Assembly (NCBI GenBank): GCA_012329085.1 | Contig: JAAXQB010000324.1 | Location: 1 to 10,265 of the forward strand | DNA length: 10,265 nucleotides | DNA from: Methanosarcinales archaeon | GTDB lineage: Archaea > Halobacteriota > Methanosarcinia > Methanosarcinales > Methanosarcinaceae | Reading direction: 5' to 3' | Shown: positions 3,339 through 10,265 of the stretch, piece after piece | Layout: every line of letters starts with the position of its first letter | How positions within the stretch are numbered: position 1 is the first letter of the stretch | The notes under the pieces: generated by a model | Told to the model about the DNA's origin: nothing | What the model saw: only the letters and a program-made list of their open reading frames with translations | Databases searched by the model: none | Made by a program: the position numbers and the translations under genes

Positions 3339-3340
3339 TA

Positions 3341-3350
3341 ATTTTAATTT
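3341..3350 (+). terminator. T-rich stretch after S6e
   Basis: TTTTAATTTT starts within a few bases of the S6e stop. Archaeal RNA polymerase often terminates on T-rich non-template DNA without a hairpin, and the gene beyond is on the opposite strand. The call rests on composition and position only. Confidence 0.4.
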
Positions 3351-3355
3351 TGGTG

Positions 3356-3483
3356 TAGGGGCTGTTGATAAATAGTTCTTATGCGATTTACTTTTTTTGT
3401 ATGTGTTTAGCCACTATATTTCACTATCAAGAGCCACAATAAGTTAAATTTAACATAATTACGGATTTATAAGGACGCCCCTA
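3356..3483. mobile_element. Possible 128-bp MITE-like element or insertion-sequence remnant
   Basis: TAGGGGC at 3356-3362 is matched by its reverse complement GCCCCTA at 3477-3483. Reading inward from both ends, the similarity continues loosely to a shared ATAAAT. This could be a small non-autonomous transposon with imperfect terminal inverted repeats, or IS ends left after deletion. No convincing target duplication was found (TTGGTG on the left, TTGACA on the right), and no transposase is encoded. A chance seven-base inverted repeat remains possible. Confidence 0.3.
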
Positions 3484-3580
3484 TTGACATCGATTTTGAA
3501 TTTAAAACTTGCAACTATCTGCAAAAATACATGTAACCAAACATCCTTATGACATCGATTTTAATGAGCTAAACACATAC
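3399..3580. repeat. 13-bp inverted repeat pair and internal direct repeats
   Basis: GTATGTGTTTAGC at 3399-3411 is exactly complementary to GCTAAACACATAC at 3568-3580. On the + strand, T runs lie just before the left arm and just after the right arm. Inside the pair, GACATCGATTTT occurs twice in direct orientation (3486-3497 and 3551-3562). The inverted pair overlaps the possible element at 3356-3483, so the region has probably been rearranged more than once. No gene could be supported in it. Confidence 0.55.
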
Positions 3581-3589
3581 CTTTTTTTT

Positions 3590-3810
3590 AATAGCTTGCT
3601 CGGAAAGAATATCAACGCACATTCGGAAAGTACATTCGTAACGAATAGGCGTAAACACTCATTCTTTCAGAATGAGTTTAAGAAAATCTTTGATAGCACA
3701 TTCTCCATAGGAGAATGGGCGAATAAGAAAACCTTCGGTTTTCTCTGACGCATATTATCTTCAAGAACATACTCTCAAAGAGAATGGGCGTCATTCATTC
3801 TGAATGGGCG
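3590..3810. repeat. Cluster of small palindromic elements
   Basis: At least four hairpins with three-base loops are packed here: ACTCATTCT/AGAATGAGT (3657-3665/3669-3677, loop TTC), CATTCTCC/GGAGAATG (3699-3706/3710-3717, loop ATA), AGAAAACC/GGTTTTCT (3726-3733/3737-3744, loop TTC) and CATTCA/TGAATG (3792-3797/3801-3806, loop TTC). A weaker one is ATTCG/CGAAT (about 3634-3646, loop TAA). Units tend to begin CGCACATTC or GCACATTC and to end in GGCG (3647-3650, 3718-3721, 3787-3790, 3807-3810). Bases 3656-3694 match 8310-8348 inside mbhJ with two differences. An open frame at 3509-3748 crosses the cluster but has no ribosome binding site or family features and is not taken as a gene. Confidence 0.75.
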
Positions 3811-3824
3811 TTATATTATTTTAT

Positions 3825-4304
3825 TTATTTATTTTTTAAAATATCTATAAGGTCATCCATTTTTTTATTTAAATTGCCCATTCCTGAATTTAAATTACCC
3901 ATTCCTGAATTAATATCTGTAAGTATTTCTTTATGCTCTTCTAATTTTCCAAAAATTAATTTGACATATTTCACTCCTTCATCTAATTTTTTATTTAGTT
4001 CAAGTAAATTATCTGCAGAAATTCTGTTAATTCCTTTTGGAAATTCTATATATGCATTCAGATCTTTTTCTTCAATTTCATCTATCTTAATTAAATCATC
4101 TTTTTTTTCTAAAAACTTTATGCTCTTTTTTAAAAACTCTTTTAATTCTTCATCATCAAAATTTGCCAATATTCTAACTATATCATCTTCATAATTATAG
4201 ACTATTCCATCAATATCTAAAGCATGTCCTAAATTTTCAATCTTCTCTCTAAATCCTACATGCGGAATTTTACCATGTATTTTTAATTCATAAGTTGTTA
4301 CCAT
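3825..4304 (-). CDS. Acylphosphatase-domain protein with helical C-terminal tail
   Basis: Residues 1-65 form an acylphosphatase-like fold: [15 protein letters not shown] corresponds to the phosphate-binding loop. Arg19 (in VGFR) and Asn37 (in IVYN) are 18 residues apart, the spacing of the catalytic Arg/Asn pair in this family. Such enzymes hydrolyse carboxyl-phosphate bonds. The usual QG before VGFR is replaced by PH, so activity is likely but not certain. Residues about 95-159 are charged and helical, with a perfect heptad duplication (NSGMGNL twice, 132-145), suggesting a coiled coil for oligomerisation or partner binding. The ATG at 4304 is preferred over one at 4322: AAAGGT at 4311-4316 (read on the minus strand) is a good ribosome binding site, and the predicted transcript start falls near 4318. 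The protein is 159 residues. Its substrate or partner is unknown. Confidence 0.75.
3871..3912 (-). repeat. 21-bp tandem duplication in the acylphosphatase tail
   Basis: The 21-base unit at 3871-3891 is repeated at 3892-3912 with only two base changes. It encodes two identical heptads NSGMGNL. Each copy contains CCCATTCCTGAAT, which partly resembles the palindromic repeat family of the neighbouring spacer. Confidence 0.85.
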
Positions 4305-4639: not shown

Positions 4640-5029
4640 TCACTCAACAATCAATCGCCGTGAATCTTTTTCATATGCATTAACTAACACATCATCAGTC
4701 ATAAAAATAGCACCTTTTGAACACACATCCTTACATTGTCCACAAGATATGCATCGTCCAACCCAAATTCGTGCCCTCCTCTCCTTTTTAACAAGTTGTA
4801 TTGCACCACATGGGCAAACTTTATTGCAAAATCCACATCCATTGCAAAGATAATTATTTATTCCAACCATTCCCCTATAATCAATTGGCACAGAAATAGG
4901 CGGAGTTTCAGGAAATAAATTTGTATCTGGTTTTTTAAATAAATTTTTAATAGATATCTCTAATATTTTAAAAATACGCATTCTCCGAAGGAATGTGCGT
5001 TCAATAAAATCTCTAATTTTCGTTTTCAT
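4640..5029 (-). CDS. mbhN: Membrane-bound hydrogenase, 2x[4Fe-4S] ferredoxin-like subunit MbhN
   Basis: This is the polyferredoxin-type (NuoI-like) electron-input subunit, carrying electrons from reduced ferredoxin toward the small subunit. Two complete cluster motifs are visible: C62-x2-C65-x2-C68-x3-C72 and C93-x2-C96-x2-C99-x3-C103. The pre-cluster segment IKNLFKKPDTNLFPETPP (27-44) is typical of MbhN. The 129-residue protein carries about 26 residues before IKNLF, more than I recall for Pyrococcus MbhN. Residues 11-18 (RTFLRRMR) of this extension are encoded by a palindrome related to the spacer repeats. GGGAG at 5038-5042, overlapping the mbhM stop, is the ribosome binding site. It is the last gene of the operon. 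Confidence 0.92.
   Translation of the reverse strand: MKTKIRDFIERTFLRRMRIFKILEISIKNLFKKPDTNLFPETPPISVPIDYRGMVGINNYLCNGCGFCNKVCPCGAIQLVKKERRARIWVGRCISCGQCKDVCSKGAIFMTDDVLVNAYEKDSRRLIVE
4977..4999 (-). repeat. Palindromic element within mbhN coding sequence
   Basis: On the minus strand the element begins CGCACATTC and ends GGAGAATGCG. It shares GCACATTC and GGAGAATG, in the same order, with the spacer copy at 3696-3717. Arms CGCATTC (4977-4983) and GAATGTG (4991-4997) can form a seven-pair stem including one G-T pair. It encodes residues 11-18 of mbhN without disturbing the frame. Confidence 0.6.
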
Positions 5030-5041
5030 TGTTAAAACTCC

Positions 5042-6067
5042 CTATACAAATAAATAATCAATTGAAATGAATATCAATCCAATTAAAGCAATCGGAATCA
5101 ATACAAACCAATAAAATCCAACTGCTTGATCAATCTTTAAACGACCAGACATGACATCCACTAATGATATTGAAAAGAATACTACAATAAAACTTTTAAC
5201 AAGATGGGCTACAAAATCCAACAATATCCCAAAACCTTCTTGAATTCCAATAATTTCAGACAATCTAAATGGAAAGAATATTGCAATACAAAGACCACTC
5301 ATTACAATCAATAGCATAGCATCTGAAAGCTTATATAAAGCGAGATTTCTACCAGAATATTCTACAGAAGAACCATATGCCAATTCCTGTTTTGCTTTAT
5401 TAAGGTCAAATAAGCCAACTCCTGATTTTCCGGGAATGCATGCCATAAATACAATTAATAATAAAAACACCCCAATAAATGTTAAAAGACCATCCATCAA
5501 CCATATATTAACTTGCGAAAATGAAGTTAATAAAAATGGTAGTTCTACCAATCCACTAATTCGCCATGCAAGACTAAATAGAACTAATGCCATTGGGCCT
5601 TTATATGCAACAATCATTACAAGTTCTCTTTGTACCCCAAGAGTTCCAAACATTGATGCAGAAGATGCACCTCCGATTATTTTTGCTATTGCAGCCATTG
5701 TTAAAAGATATATTATGGAAATAACATCACCAAATTGCGAAAATGGATGCACTATTCCAATTGGAATGTATAGCATAATTGCAATTAGAGATGCAAGTGA
5801 AAGTATTGGTGCAAAATTAAAAAGCCATCCAATAGCCATTTTTGGAACTATGCTCTCTTTTCCACATAGTTTTAAAAAATCATAAAACTCCTGATAAATT
5901 GAAGGTCCAACTCTTTTTTGCATCCTTGCAATTATTTTTCTATTCATTCCTGAAAATAATAGCCCGAAAAATCCAGTATAAAAAAATCCAACTACTATCA
6001 AATAAAATGTGATTTTAAATCCTTCCAACGCCGCATTTATTAACAGATTTAAATCATTTGAGACCAT
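5042..6067 (-). CDS. mbhM: Membrane-bound hydrogenase, NuoH-like membrane anchor MbhM
   Basis: This is an integral membrane subunit of the complex I NuoH/HyfC/EchB family. It docks the hydrogenase peripheral arm onto the membrane and links redox chemistry to ion transport. Its 341 residues are largely hydrophobic, with about eight predicted helices. The family signatures are RVGPSIYQEF (52-61) after helix 1, FGTLGVQREL (140-149), and the acidic loop GLFDLNKAKQELAYGSSVEYSG (218-239), equivalent to the NuoH PFDxxEAExELVxGxxxEYSG loop, with E228 and E236 retained. The start overlaps the mbhL end by 14 bases, so translation is probably coupled. It sits between the large subunit and MbhN, as in Pyrococcus. 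Confidence 0.95.
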   Translation of the reverse strand: MVSNDLNLLINAALEGFKITFYLIVVGFFYTGFFGLLFSGMNRKIIARMQKRVGPSIYQEFYDFLKLCGKESIVPKMAIGWLFNFAPILSLASLIAIMLYIPIGIVHPFSQFGDVISIIYLLTMAAIAKIIGGASSASMFGTLGVQRELVMIVAYKGPMALVLFSLAWRISGLVELPFLLTSFSQVNIWLMDGLLTFIGVFLLLIVFMACIPGKSGVGLFDLNKAKQELAYGSSVEYSGRNLALYKLSDAMLLIVMSGLCIAIFFPFRLSEIIGIQEGFGILLDFVAHLVKSFIVVFFSISLVDVMSGRLKIDQAVGFYWFVLIPIALIGLIFISIDYLFV

Positions 6068-7316
6068 TTAAATTCAACTCTTTTGTCTTCTTTATAGATA
6101 AATTTAGCAAATCTTGTTCCGATAATACTTTAATAGAATCATCTTTTTCATTGATTATTGCAACTCTATCTGTACAACTAAAACATGGGTCAATCGATGT
6201 AATTATGACTGACACATCTGCAATTTGACTGCCAATCATCATGGGTACATATCCTTGTACATTACTAATTGATGGAGTTTTTGATTTCCAAAGAATTGGT
6301 TTATCACTCTTTTCAGCACAAACGTAATTTATTGCCTCCCCCCTTGAACCTTCATGCCGCCCAATACCATAACCTGTTGCTCTTTTAAGTTTATTTATAA
6401 TCTTTATTGGATTTTTTTCAGTTAATATATCTCCATTTGGCATCATATCCAATGCATCATCAATTATTCTTAGAGATAATTTTAATTCATGTAGTCGAAC
6501 CATGGCTCTATCAAATATAGATCCTTTTGGAGTTCCATATAAATCTTGTGGAACAATTGCTTTTACACCAATATCACCGTATGCTGCATGTCCTTCATCT
6601 TGCCTTACATCTTTTCTTATCCCACTCCCTCTTGCCACAGGACCTGCAACACAAAGTTCTAATCCTTGTTTTTTTGATAAAATTCCAGAATTTGCCAATC
6701 TTTTTTCAATTGTAATATCATGTAAAAATATTTCAATTAGTTTATCAACTTGTGATTTATAATATTCAAGATCTTTTTTTATTTTATCTGCATGTCTTTC
6801 TTCTATATCTCTTCTAACACCACCAACCATATTCATTGCATAATGAATTCGATTTCCTGAAATATAATCAAATAAATCCATTACTCGCTCCCTCATTTGC
6901 CATGCAATATGCAATATTGAATCATATCCAATTGAATATCCTGTAACTCCTGCCCAAAGAAAATGTGAATGAATTCTTTCAAGTTCTCCAATAATTACTC
7001 GTATATAGTCTGCTCGTTCTGGAACTTCAAATTCACATGCATCCTCTGTTGCTTGAACAAAACAAAATGGTTGTGTATGTGAGCAAATTCCACAAATTTT
7101 TTCTGCAAGATATATTGTTTGTATCCAATTTCTCCTAAGTGAAAGCCACTCGATTCCTCTATAATTAAAACCATTCCGTATATCCACACCAACTATCTCT
7201 TCCCCATCCACAGTAATATTTATGCCAATTGGCTCTTTGAGTGCTGCATGGAATGGTCCAATTGGGACAGTAAGTGTTGGAGAAAACTTATAAGCACCAT
7301 CTTTATTTTGACTCAT
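6054..7316 (-). CDS. mbhL: Membrane-bound [NiFe] hydrogenase large subunit MbhL
   Basis: This is the catalytic subunit (NuoD-like), which reduces protons to H2 at the NiFe site. The 420-residue length fits MbhL. Both nickel-binding pairs are present: C75-x2-C78 (EKICGICSH) and C378-x2-C381 (DPCFSCTDR), so this is a hydrogenase rather than a redox-inactive Fpo/Nuo-type homologue. Other family features are GPFHAAL (20-26), the ELERIHSHFLW helix (111-121) and HEGSRGEA (321-328). Only 39 residues follow the last cysteine, with no obvious His-bounded tail of the sort cleaved in group 1 enzymes. The start is firm: GGGAGAGGGT (7322-7331) lies five bases before the ATG, which overlaps the mbhK stop as ATGA. 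Confidence 0.96.
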   Translation of the reverse strand: MSQNKDGAYKFSPTLTVPIGPFHAALKEPIGINITVDGEEIVGVDIRNGFNYRGIEWLSLRRNWIQTIYLAEKICGICSHTQPFCFVQATEDACEFEVPERADYIRVIIGELERIHSHFLWAGVTGYSIGYDSILHIAWQMRERVMDLFDYISGNRIHYAMNMVGGVRRDIEERHADKIKKDLEYYKSQVDKLIEIFLHDITIEKRLANSGILSKKQGLELCVAGPVARGSGIRKDVRQDEGHAAYGDIGVKAIVPQDLYGTPKGSIFDRAMVRLHELKLSLRIIDDALDMMPNGDILTEKNPIKIINKLKRATGYGIGRHEGSRGEAINYVCAEKSDKPILWKSKTPSISNVQGYVPMMIGSQIADVSVIITSIDPCFSCTDRVAIINEKDDSIKVLSEQDLLNLSIKKTKELNLNGLK

Positions 7317-7861
7317 TTTTTACCCTCTCCCTTTTTAATAAAAGGTGCATTATTTACTAATGGATGTGTATCACTTATTCCAGACTCATCAAGTCTAAGT
7401 GGATATAAATTTTCTGGAAAATCATCAGGCAATACAAATTTTGCATCATCATTTAAATTTTCAATTGTAACTCCAAGCATTTCTCGAACCTCTTTTTCAT
7501 ATAAAATTGCACCTGGTATTATATCTGTTATGGTTTGAATTTTTGGATTGTCTTTTGAAACTCGTGTTACAAGAGCGATTACAATATCTTTTTTTACCAA
7601 CCCATATTGTATAGTTATGAAATAAATTATTTCAATTTCATTTCCCACATCTCTTCCACTAATTGTAGATATGTGTAAATTTTCTTGAAATTTTAAAAGA
7701 AAATTTATTGCATTTTTTATTTTTTTATTACTTATATGTATCCACAATCTTTTTAATTTGTGTTCGTTTTTACCTACTTTTTTTATGCCTATACGAGTTT
7801 GAGTGATATATTCTCCAAATTCATTTTTAAACTCTTCACACAATTCTTTAATATTAATCAT
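7313..7861 (-). CDS. mbhK: Membrane-bound hydrogenase, NuoC-like 30-kDa subunit MbhK
   Basis: This is the structural peripheral-arm subunit homologous to NuoC, packing against the large and small subunits. At 182 residues it has the size of MbhK/EchD proteins. The N-terminal half is divergent and lysine-rich, as is common. The C-terminal half has the recognisable NuoC pattern: PGAILYEKEVREMLGVTIEN (about 115-134), then KFVLPDDFPENLYPLRLDES (about 141-160), equivalent to the family E-REV-DM-GI and LLPDDW--PLRKD signatures. It overlaps the mbhJ stop and the mbhL start by ATGA quadruplets. No clear ribosome binding site is seen, so coupling to mbhJ is likely. The final lysine-rich tail is ordinary. 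Confidence 0.93.
   Translation of the reverse strand: MINIKELCEEFKNEFGEYITQTRIGIKKVGKNEHKLKRLWIHISNKKIKNAINFLLKFQENLHISTISGRDVGNEIEIIYFITIQYGLVKKDIVIALVTRVSKDNPKIQTITDIIPGAILYEKEVREMLGVTIENLNDDAKFVLPDDFPENLYPLRLDESGISDTHPLVNNAPFIKKGEGKK
7322..7331 (-). promoter_or_regulatory. Strong ribosome binding site for mbhL
   Basis: On the minus strand the sequence is GGGAGAGGGT, purine-rich and five bases before the mbhL ATG, lying inside the end of mbhK. It probably gives the catalytic subunit independent or boosted initiation besides ATGA coupling. Confidence 0.7.
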
Positions 7862-8373
7862 AATTTTTCAATAATTTTTGTCATTCCATCTATGATATTT
7901 TCAGGTCTCGGAGGACATCCCTCTATATATACATCAACTGGCATTATATTATCCAATGGTCCATCAATGGAAAATGAACCATTGAAAATTCCATTTGAAG
8001 TCGGACATGTGCCAATTGCAATCACAAATTTTGGATTTGCAATTTGATCGTAAATTCTTTTAAGTTTTTCTGCACCTAAATGGCATACAGGTCCTGTAAC
8101 TAATAATATATCTGCATGTTTTGGAGATCCAACAAGTACCGCTCCAAATCGTTCTACATCATATCTTGGAGTTAATGCTGCAATTATTTCAATATCGCAT
8201 CCATTGCATGACCCTGAATTGACATGATATATCCATGGAGATTTCTTAATATATTTTGATGGATTTGGCAATAGCTTCTTAATAGCTTGTTCGAAACGAA
8301 CGAGCATATCACTCATTCTTTCAGAATGAGTTTGAAAAAATCTTTGATTTTTGATTTTATCGACAAATTTCAT
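7858..8373 (-). CDS. mbhJ: Membrane-bound [NiFe] hydrogenase small subunit MbhJ
   Basis: This NuoB-like subunit holds the proximal [4Fe-4S] cluster that passes electrons to the NiFe site. The cluster ligands are complete: C56-x2-C59 (GSCNGCDIE), C123 (GTCP) and C153 (GCPPRPE). The core from SPWIYHVNSGSCNGC (45-59) onward is close to Mbh homologues. The part before SPW is unusual: about 44 residues, roughly twice what I recall for Pyrococcus MbhJ. Residues 9-31 of it are encoded by two adjacent palindromes, one of which recurs in the spacer after S6e. The frame stays open and the core is intact, so the gene should be functional. The ATG directly follows the mbhI stop and has GGTGG (within 8379-8384) as ribosome binding site. 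Confidence 0.95.
   Translation of the reverse strand: MKFVDKIKNQRFFQTHSERMSDMLVRFEQAIKKLLPNPSKYIKKSPWIYHVNSGSCNGCDIEIIAALTPRYDVERFGAVLVGSPKHADILLVTGPVCHLGAEKLKRIYDQIANPKFVIAIGTCPTSNGIFNGSFSIDGPLDNIMPVDVYIEGCPPRPENIIDGMTKIIEKL
8281..8348 (-). repeat. Compound palindromic element within mbhJ coding sequence
   Basis: Two hairpins lie side by side. GCTTGTTCG (8285-8293) pairs with CGAACGAGC (8297-8305) across AAA, with one G-T pair. ACTCATTCT (8311-8319) pairs perfectly with AGAATGAGT (8323-8331) across TTC. Bases 8310-8348 match 3656-3694 in the spacer except at two positions, and 8281-8293 match 3590-3602 except at one. The stretch encodes residues 9-31 of MbhJ. Confidence 0.8.
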
Positions 8374-8766
8374 CTATGTTCCACCAAATAATACAATAAT
8401 CATTAATAAAATCGCAAGTATGATTGTAATCCATATATTATAATCAAGAATATTTCCAGTATGCTCTTGTTTAACTGGGGTGTAATAGAACTTTAAAGCT
8501 TTTTTAAAACCCCACAAAAGATTATGGCCTGAAACTTGCAATTCATTTGAATTTTGTATTTTTTTTATATCCATTTCTGAATGCCCACTTAAAAAAGACA
8601 TGCATTTATTTACTCCTTTTTCATGCTCTACTGAACTAAACTTTGCCAACATAACAACTGCTTTTGAAATTAGTAAAGAAACACATAATACAAATGTAAA
8701 TACAATTGCATTAAATTGTCCAAATTCTGTAATAAGCGTCAGTTTATAAACCTCCTCTAACTGCAT
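8374..8766 (-). CDS. mbhI: Membrane-bound hydrogenase subunit MbhI
   Basis: This is a small membrane subunit between the antiporter-like MbhH and the small subunit, with the place and layout of MbhI. One hydrophobic helix lies near the start (FNAIVFTFVLCVSLLISKAVVML) and one at the end (YNIWITIILAILLMIIVLF). Before the last helix is FYYTPVKQEHTGNILDYNIW, a pattern I recall from MbhI and related subunits. The ATG at 8766 gives 130 residues; an in-frame TTG three bases earlier is less likely. The best ribosome binding site, GAGGAGGT at 8750-8757, lies inside this frame and points to a CTG at 8742, so the true start is uncertain. Residues about 55-80 are polar and may be an extra loop. Confidence 0.82.
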   Translation of the reverse strand: MQLEEVYKLTLITEFGQFNAIVFTFVLCVSLLISKAVVMLAKFSSVEHEKGVNKCMSFLSGHSEMDIKKIQNSNELQVSGHNLLWGFKKALKFYYTPVKQEHTGNILDYNIWITIILAILLMIIVLFGGT

Positions 8767-10265
8767 CAATGTATGTAGATTGATTTAACAGTGCTTCTGT
8801 TGCAGGATGTATTAAATTATCAATGATATGCTCTGGGAAAACACCCATAAGTATGCAACTTATTGCAAGTAAAATCATTGGAATTAATATTATAAGTGGT
8901 GCCTCACCTACACAATCACATTTTGCAACGGTATATCCTGAAAATGCACTTAAAAATACTTTAAGAAATGATGCAAGGGTAAGTGCAGAAACGGATATTG
9001 CAATTAATGTAATGACTGGATTAAACATAGCACTCGAAGTATATATAAGCCATTTAGATGCAAATCCATTAAATGGTGGTATTCCACTAATTGATGCTAC
9101 ACCAACTATAAAACACATTGTTGTAATTGGCAGGCTTTTTGCAAGTCCCCCCAATTCATTAAGATTTGTGGTTTGAGTTTTATACATAATAACACATGCG
9201 GTCATAAATAACAATGTTTTATATTGTGCATTATTTAAAACATGAAATAGCCCCCCATTTATTGAATTGATTGATATTGTAGGAGATGCAACCATTAATG
9301 TAAATCCTATTCCAATTCCAAGTAGCATATAACCAATCTGAGAGACAATATGATATGCTAAAAGTCTTTTATAATCAGTTTGTAAAAGTGCCATACTCAC
9401 ACCTACAAACATAGACAAAATTCCAAATATAATTAATATCCATCCTATCACATTTTTGTCAACTGCCACTCCAAATAATGTAAAAACGATTCTTACAATT
9501 GTATAAATTGCCGTTTTTGTAGCAAATCCTCCGAGCATAACCGCTACTGGCAGGGGTGCAAAACCATAAGCGTCTGCAAGCCACATATGAAGCGGAACTG
9601 CACCACATTTTAATGCAAATCCTACTATAAATAGTGCAAGTGCTATATTTCCTACAAACGAAGGATTCATTCCAATATAGTATGCAAGTTGTGCAATTGC
9701 AAGTGTGCCATATTCTCCATAAAGAAGTGCTATACCTATTAATATAAATGTGGATGCAATAGATCCAACAATTAGGTATTTTAATGATGCTTCTATACTT
9801 TCTGGGTTATCTTTATCAAATGCAATAAGTGCAAATGATGCAACTGCACTAATTTCAATAAATACATACATATTGAATAAATCGCCAGTTAATACAATTC
9901 CAAGAAATCCTGTCATCATAAGCATGCACAGAGTGTAAAAAAGTCCAAGCCCTGATTCTTTTTTCATATATTCAAATGCAAAAATGAGGGATAAAAATCC
10001 TATAATTGAAATTATAAATGCCAAAAGTATGCTTAAACCATCAATAGTAAGCATAATTCTTATAGGAAAATCATAATTATAAGGAATTGGATTTAATGCA
10101 CCAAGTGTATATACAATTGGATTGAAATCTCCTTTATAAAGCTGAACACTAGTAAGAAAAACCATTAATATGGTTACAAAACTTCCTATTATCACTCCTG
10201 CATTTCTTAATTTTGCATTAATCATATCCAATAGAGGTATTAAAAATGCAGTCAAAAGGGGCAAT
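8744..10265 (-). CDS. mbhH: Membrane-bound hydrogenase antiporter-like subunit MbhH (5' end cut by window)
   Basis: This is a large polytopic membrane protein of the MrpD/NuoN/NuoL family. In Mbh complexes this subunit joins the hydrogenase module to the Mrp-like antiporter module and takes part in proton or sodium movement. About 506 residues are visible, close to full length, with some 14 hydrophobic helices. Key ion-path residues are in place: Glu137 in the VFIEISA helix, Lys219 (FALKCGAVPLHMWLADAYG), Lys250 (FATKTAIY), His341 (GLFHVLNNAQYKTLLF) and Lys404 (NGFASKW). A TTG lies at the very edge (10262-10264), but homologues usually begin a few residues earlier, so the true start is probably outside the window. 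The stop overlaps the start of mbhI. Confidence 0.93.
   Translation of the reverse strand, partial: LPLLTAFLIPLLDMINAKLRNAGVIIGSFVTILMVFLTSVQLYKGDFNPIVYTLGALNPIPYNYDFPIRIMLTIDGLSILLAFIISIIGFLSLIFAFEYMKKESGLGLFYTLCMLMMTGFLGIVLTGDLFNMYVFIEISAVASFALIAFDKDNPESIEASLKYLIVGSIASTFILIGIALLYGEYGTLAIAQLAYYIGMNPSFVGNIALALFIVGFALKCGAVPLHMWLADAYGFAPLPVAVMLGGFATKTAIYTIVRIVFTLFGVAVDKNVIGWILIIFGILSMFVGVSMALLQTDYKRLLAYHIVSQIGYMLLGIGIGFTLMVASPTISINSINGGLFHVLNNAQYKTLLFMTACVIMYKTQTTNLNELGGLAKSLPITTMCFIVGVASISGIPPFNGFASKWLIYTSSAMFNPVITLIAISVSALTLASFLKVFLSAFSGYTVAKCDCVGEAPLIILIPMILLAISCILMGVFPEHIIDNLIHPATEALLNQSTYIDAVRGGL
8750..8757 (-). promoter_or_regulatory. Consensus ribosome binding site at the mbhH-mbhI junction
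   Basis: The minus strand reads GAGGAGGT, a near-perfect complement to the 16S rRNA end, just before the mbhH stop (TAA, 8744-8746). It is downstream of the mbhI ATG and seven bases before an in-frame CTG at 8740-8742. It therefore either supports a non-ATG start for mbhI or reflects the overlapping codons alone. Confidence 0.5.

Follow-up and report, generated by a model that had tools for sequence, protein, structure and literature searches.

The in-frame capture of hairpin repeats within genes has been described for bacteria, most of all for Rickettsia. RPEs are short palindromic repeats that occur in spacers and also in frame inside unrelated genes, to which they add a peptide segment (PMC10969869). 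REPs tagged with GTAG/CGTC are hairpins of 20–40 bp arranged in clusters and dimers; they are mostly intergenic, and those found in ORFs lie more often at the N-terminal end (PMC3733652). In enterobacteria, RU elements are MITE-like repeats with open frames that have become fused into genes (PMC2759123). A text search of PMC3733652 met archaea only in the reference list. REPs themselves have been reported from archaea (PMC12306157), as have small non-autonomous elements, or MITEs (PMC10969869), and IS200-type Y1 transposases are the sole TnpA-Y1 subclass with archaeal reports (PMC6006769). Our search of open-licence papers found no case of an archaeal in-frame palindromic insertion.

Here we describe a hydrogenase gene of an archaeon in which residues ~9–32 of the encoded protein are probably a REP/MITE-like, non-autonomous hairpin repeat captured as an N-terminal extension. 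The window, i.e. the whole stretch of 10 265 nt that was analyzed, has a GC content of 31% and carries ribosomal protein genes, ndk, infB, and the S6e gene, followed by a spacer, an acylphosphatase-like gene, and a minus-strand operon for an Mbh-type hydrogenase. Its aIF5B has one relative at 98% identity, all next matches being at ≤ 70% and the named ones belonging to Methanolobus and other Methanosarcinaceae; among 185 genomes of the order Methanosarcinales, the best match was at 70%. The host would thus be an uncultured, deep relative of Methanosarcinaceae. An Rfam and tRNA search of the window returned no known RNA family or tRNA, the sole Rfam match (U6 at 428–528) falling below the gathering score.

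The gene in question is mbhJ (7858–8373, minus strand), which encodes the 171-aa small subunit of an Mbh-type membrane-bound [NiFe] hydrogenase and was assigned by Pfam, NCBIfam, and 6cfw_J. The Pfam domain Oxidored_q6 spans residues 56–166 (1.8e-30), matches to NuoB-type NCBIfam models begin at residues 43–57, and the MbhJ of P. furiosus (6cfw_J) matches with an E value of 7.4e-57.

Near its start, mbhJ contains a 73-nt two-hairpin repeat, here called element A (8276–8348, minus strand), which codes for residues ~9–32 (N-QRFFQTHSERMSDMLVRFEQAIK) and was delimited by sequence matches, hairpin scanning, folding, and blastn. The first-pass annotation had described two adjacent hairpins at 8281–8348 encoding residues 9–31; this span and both hairpins were recovered, the repeat unit itself being slightly longer. 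Hairpin 1 (8285–8305; GCTTGTTCG-AAA-CGAACGAGC) has one mismatch and was barely at the threshold of the hairpin scan, and is paired in the predicted fold, and hairpin 2 (8311–8331; ACTCATTCT-TTC-AGAATGAGT) was found by the scan as well. Element A folds to −21.7 kcal/mol on the plus strand (z −4.3) and to −19.1 kcal/mol on the coding strand (z −3.1), with none of 200 shuffles as good in either case. Hairpins are generally not rare here, as the scan found 16 in the window versus 1–8 in each of ten Markov copies.

Two copies of the two-hairpin unit are known, the one in mbhJ and one in the spacer between the S6e and acylphosphatase-like genes (3585–3694), located by alignment and blastn. Over 8310–8348 and 3656–3694 the copies agree at 37 of 39 bases, and over 8281–8293 and 3590–3602 they differ at one base in 13, exactly as had been noted at first; the latter match belongs to a longer block (8276–8300 and 3585–3609) with 21 of 25 bases identical. 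In blastn of 8276–8348 against the window, the spacer copy scored 61.9 bits (E 1.5e-13), and a chance match was rejected because the best of 200 shuffled windows reached 28.2 bits. The genic copy is shorter than the spacer copy by 37 nt, and their alignment leaves a 36-nt gap between the two blocks, filled in the spacer copy by a palindrome-like stretch (~3614–3654). Read from this gap, the spacer copy is apparently one element nested inside another. By eye, the borders at 8276 and 8348 enclose internal hairpins but display no clear terminal repeats or target-site duplication. On the plus strand, a 79-codon open frame (3509–3748) runs through the spacer hairpins, so that the “non-coding” copies also lie within an open frame.

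We compared MbhJ with its homologues using an alignment of the 120 best matches, i.e. this protein and 119 others. Ahead of S45 there are 44 residues here versus 7–17 in 112 of the 119 listed homologues, and the other seven (P0060, P0078, P0086, P0097, P0100, P0102, and P0106) have 24–44 unrelated residues in this place. The element peptide scored at best 19 against the 119 homologue N-termini (self-score 122), and a protein look-up with this peptide returned only MbhJ itself (1 match among 11 candidates). The junction is longer at the DNA level, too: the upstream stop lies 132 nt from the S45 codon here versus a median of 42 nt (IQR 26–76) in 66 relatives, three of which have a distance of ≥ 132 nt. 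These 66 were the ones among 80 relatives with an MbhI-sized upstream ORF, which was taken as mbhI by its size; of the other 14, 13 lacked a frame of this kind and one was of insufficient length. Subtracting 69–73 nt would bring the mbhI–mbhJ junction to ordinary length. On this comparison, residues ~9–32 are an extra segment relative to homologues. The claim that this part of mbhJ is repeat-derived is borne out by the spacer match, by the absence of residues 9–31 from all 119 listed homologues, and by the limits of the match, which coincide with those of the extra segment.

The N-terminus had further been described as looking about 20 residues longer than in Pyrococcus, and residue 10 of 6cfw_J does align with residue 31 here. 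Thermococcus and Pyrococcus MbhJ have N-terminal extensions of their own, with 32–35 residues before S45 (P0060, P0086, P0102, and P0106), and BLASTP coverage of the MbhJ query by P0106 is 98%, as might be expected of an N-terminus that was coding from the outset, like that of Thermococcales, with the spacer holding a stray copy of the mbhJ 5′ end. However, similarity between the extension sequences does not exceed chance (147–213 of 500 shuffles score as high for the three Thermococcus-like proteins P0086, P0102, and P0106, and 152 of 500 for P0060), the spacer homology is confined to the hairpin unit and ends before the flanking mbhJ codons, and related hairpins recur in the window without mbhJ sequence. 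We hold such an ancestry to be highly improbable. In the 111 family genomes searched, all MbhJ matches were at ≤ 56% and none had an empty site nearby; these matches look Ech-type, whereas the operon of the window (4640–10264) is Mbh-type.

The ATG at 8373 directly abuts the TAG stop of mbhI, whose end (8374–8388, minus strand) provides a GGTGG Shine–Dalgarno (SD) motif at the right distance. The SD energy of this start is −6.2 kcal/mol, calculated with what we take to be the anti-SD sequence, as against −0.3 at the TTG at 8271 (residue 35), −0.9 at M20, and −2.2 at M23. Since −6.3 is reached by 5% of random positions, and the starts of mbhK (−0.9) and ndk (−1.3) score poorly, we regard the SD argument as moderate; it favors ATG 8373 as the translation start of MbhJ. 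The listed TTG start of mbhI itself (8374–8769) has no SD motif, and because a strong GGAGGT (−11.3) lies just upstream of ~8745, mbhI probably starts further in.

Element A could also be placed in an untranslated mbhI–mbhJ leader, with MbhJ starting at TTG 8271 or at an internal ATG (residue 20 or 23) and the open frame upstream of it arising by accident; any effect of the hairpins would in that case be on mRNA stability or on coupling. TTG 8271 is a possible alternative start and would yield a protein beginning like those homologues that open with MPxPxK, and the short distances to S45 in 112 of the 119 mean that many homologues begin near here. The REP literature advises caution over REPs at predicted N-termini, many of which turn out to be extragenic since translation begins downstream (PMC3733652), and the chance of 34 open codons at this base composition, ∼0.06, is not negligible. 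Weighing against such a leader are the missing SD motifs at the three internal starts and the abutting of ATG 8373 on the mbhI stop, which is the usual coupled arrangement, as well as the absence of a stop codon: the codon that is CAA in mbhJ is TAA in the spacer copy when read in the same frame (F-Q versus S-stop), one of the two differences in 39. This difference fits maintenance of an open frame in mbhJ, although an open frame is also a precondition for the gene being noticed at all. An untranslated leader seems unlikely to us, and translation of MbhJ would start at ATG 8373. In a structure model of MbhJ (mean pLDDT 73), the element is predicted to contribute a helix (residues 16–34) of low to middling confidence, the block means over residues 1–40 being 48, 64, 76, and 61.

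According to the preferred reading, in which the repeat was captured as coding sequence, hairpin elements would be scattered by a Y1-type single-strand transposase and land in short operon junctions. An element of ~69–73 nt would have inserted beside or just inside the mbhJ start, at the tight mbhI–mbhJ junction, the direction of insertion running from a spacer-type repeat into the gene. Given a whole number of codons and a stop-free frame, a ribosome coming from ATG 8373 would read through element A and add a ~23-residue arm ahead of the conserved MbhJ fold. One copy of fitting length and frame may in this way have become the MbhJ N-terminus with its predicted, low-confidence helix. The extension would probably be tolerated, because this N-terminus varies among family members and is not part of the iron–sulfur domain. 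A Y1/IS200-like transposase is the candidate mobilizing enzyme; Y1_Tnp was found in 6 of the 10 nearest related genomes searched.

A second gene of the operon shows a comparable arrangement. The 4Fe-4S subunit gene mbhN (4640–5029, minus strand) has ~20 extra N-terminal residues, judged from NF006221, which matches from residue 17, and from the junction distance: the mbhM stop lies 72 nt from residue 21 here, versus −1 to 40 nt to residues 21–27 in 34 of 41 relatives (among the other seven, mbhM was not matched in two, the genes lay apart in three, and the match began only at residue 43 in two). Pattern search and folding place a family B palindrome (see below), which the first-pass annotation had overlooked, at 4974–5001 on the minus strand, coding for about residues 10–18 of this ferredoxin-like subunit. 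Its hairpin is weak (−8.3 kcal/mol, z −2.4, 5 of 200 shuffles as good) and falls under the hairpin-scan threshold. The SD energy is −6.6 at ATG 5029 and −1.1 at the internal ATG. Two hairpin captures of the same kind thus seem to have taken place within this operon.

The presence of a hairpin close behind the start codon in two subunit genes of one operon, with those of element A forming on the mRNA strand, might instead reflect recruitment for a function (e.g. damping of translation or mRNA cleavage that would adjust subunit ratios in the mbh operon), with the extension as a side effect. Yet hairpins of this family also populate non-coding spacers, the usual pattern for dispersed repeats, and the weakness of the mbhN hairpin also speaks against recruitment, which we consider distinctly unlikely.

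The family B palindromes share the core CATTC..GAATGGGCG. One lies between ndk and infB (1018–1039; fold z −5.0) and one in the S6e/acylphosphatase spacer (3695–3721; fold z −4.8), both found by hairpin scan and pattern search, and pattern search added two more units in the same spacer (3764–3812). Altogether, the window has six CATTCN{3,9}GAATG hairpins: four are in spacers, and the other two lie inside mbhJ and mbhN, near the starts of these genes. With ≤ 1 mismatch, GAATGGGCG occurs at 10 sites versus 0.73 expected, a count in which both arms of some hairpins are included, as are, possibly, two intragenic sites of no relation to the family. The pattern CATTCN{3,9}GAATGGGCG occurs at 3 sites in these 10 kb and at 4 sites in 111 family genomes, equal to a reversed-pattern control (4); on these counts, we read family B as an expansion of this lineage. 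A stricter pattern had no match in the 111 genomes and is given no weight, as it also misses the window's own copies.

For element A, the related genomes held only matches of 22–38 nt (E 0.0006–0.01; 9 of 111 family and 2 of 13 other genomes), which we read as chance. Exact cores had no match in IMG/VR, and the 2 and 3 contigs obtained there with looser cores had unrelated flanks.

Compared with the described systems, element A resembles RPEs in being palindromic, in occurring both inside a gene and in a spacer (3339–3825), and in lying in an open frame as a segment that none of the 119 listed homologues carries, the true start codon being the caveat. It is unlike them in its archaeal host, in its length (73 nt versus ~150), in its N-terminal position, and in having one genic and one spacer copy known, and the resemblance is one of kind, not of sequence comparison. 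The initial suggestion of an RPE equivalent in an archaeal [NiFe] hydrogenase stands as far as this pattern goes and falls short of being established: at so extreme an N-terminal position, initiation further downstream is the well-known pitfall, and the SD evidence favors translation from ATG 8373, short of proof. The clustering of 20–40 bp hairpins at 3585–3812 is that of REPs, but the copies in the window have no GTAG and no constant CGTC tag at the hairpin foot (they end in GGGCG followed by TTT, AAT, TCA, TTA, or TAA, with CGTC in one only), and we do not class them as members of the GTAG/CGTC-tagged group. RU elements differ in length (103–168 bp) and in their enterobacterial hosts. Element A is small and non-autonomous, as are archaeal MITEs and IS200-derived hairpin elements, its matching transposase being putative. 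By analogy, element A in MbhJ would be an archaeal instance akin to bacterial RPEs and intragenic REPs.

A broader reading, which we offer tentatively and can neither favor nor dismiss with any firmness, is that of an archaeal RPE-like expansion, in which hairpins repeatedly land at short operon junctions and become new in-frame N-termini of core enzymes, the Mbh hydrogenase among them. If true, this would be a first archaeal counterpart of protein-coding palindromes, with peptide segments of Mbh born from selfish DNA. A case in a redox subunit of a membrane hydrogenase from a methanogen-related archaeon, with a second, related palindrome in the operon, would extend the supply of new peptide segments by selfish hairpins to the other prokaryotic domain. 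Annotators, too, should be aware that repeats may be the source of N-termini in genomes of this kind.

Two further repeats were observed in the window. The acylphosphatase-like gene has a tandem seven-residue repeat at its end (NSGMGNL, twice; 3870–3910). Directly adjoining element A in the spacer is a 182-nt MITE-like stretch (3399–3580) with perfect 13-nt inverted repeats (GTATGTGTTTAGC / GCTAAACACATAC) and an internal direct repeat, TGACATCGATTTT, present twice.
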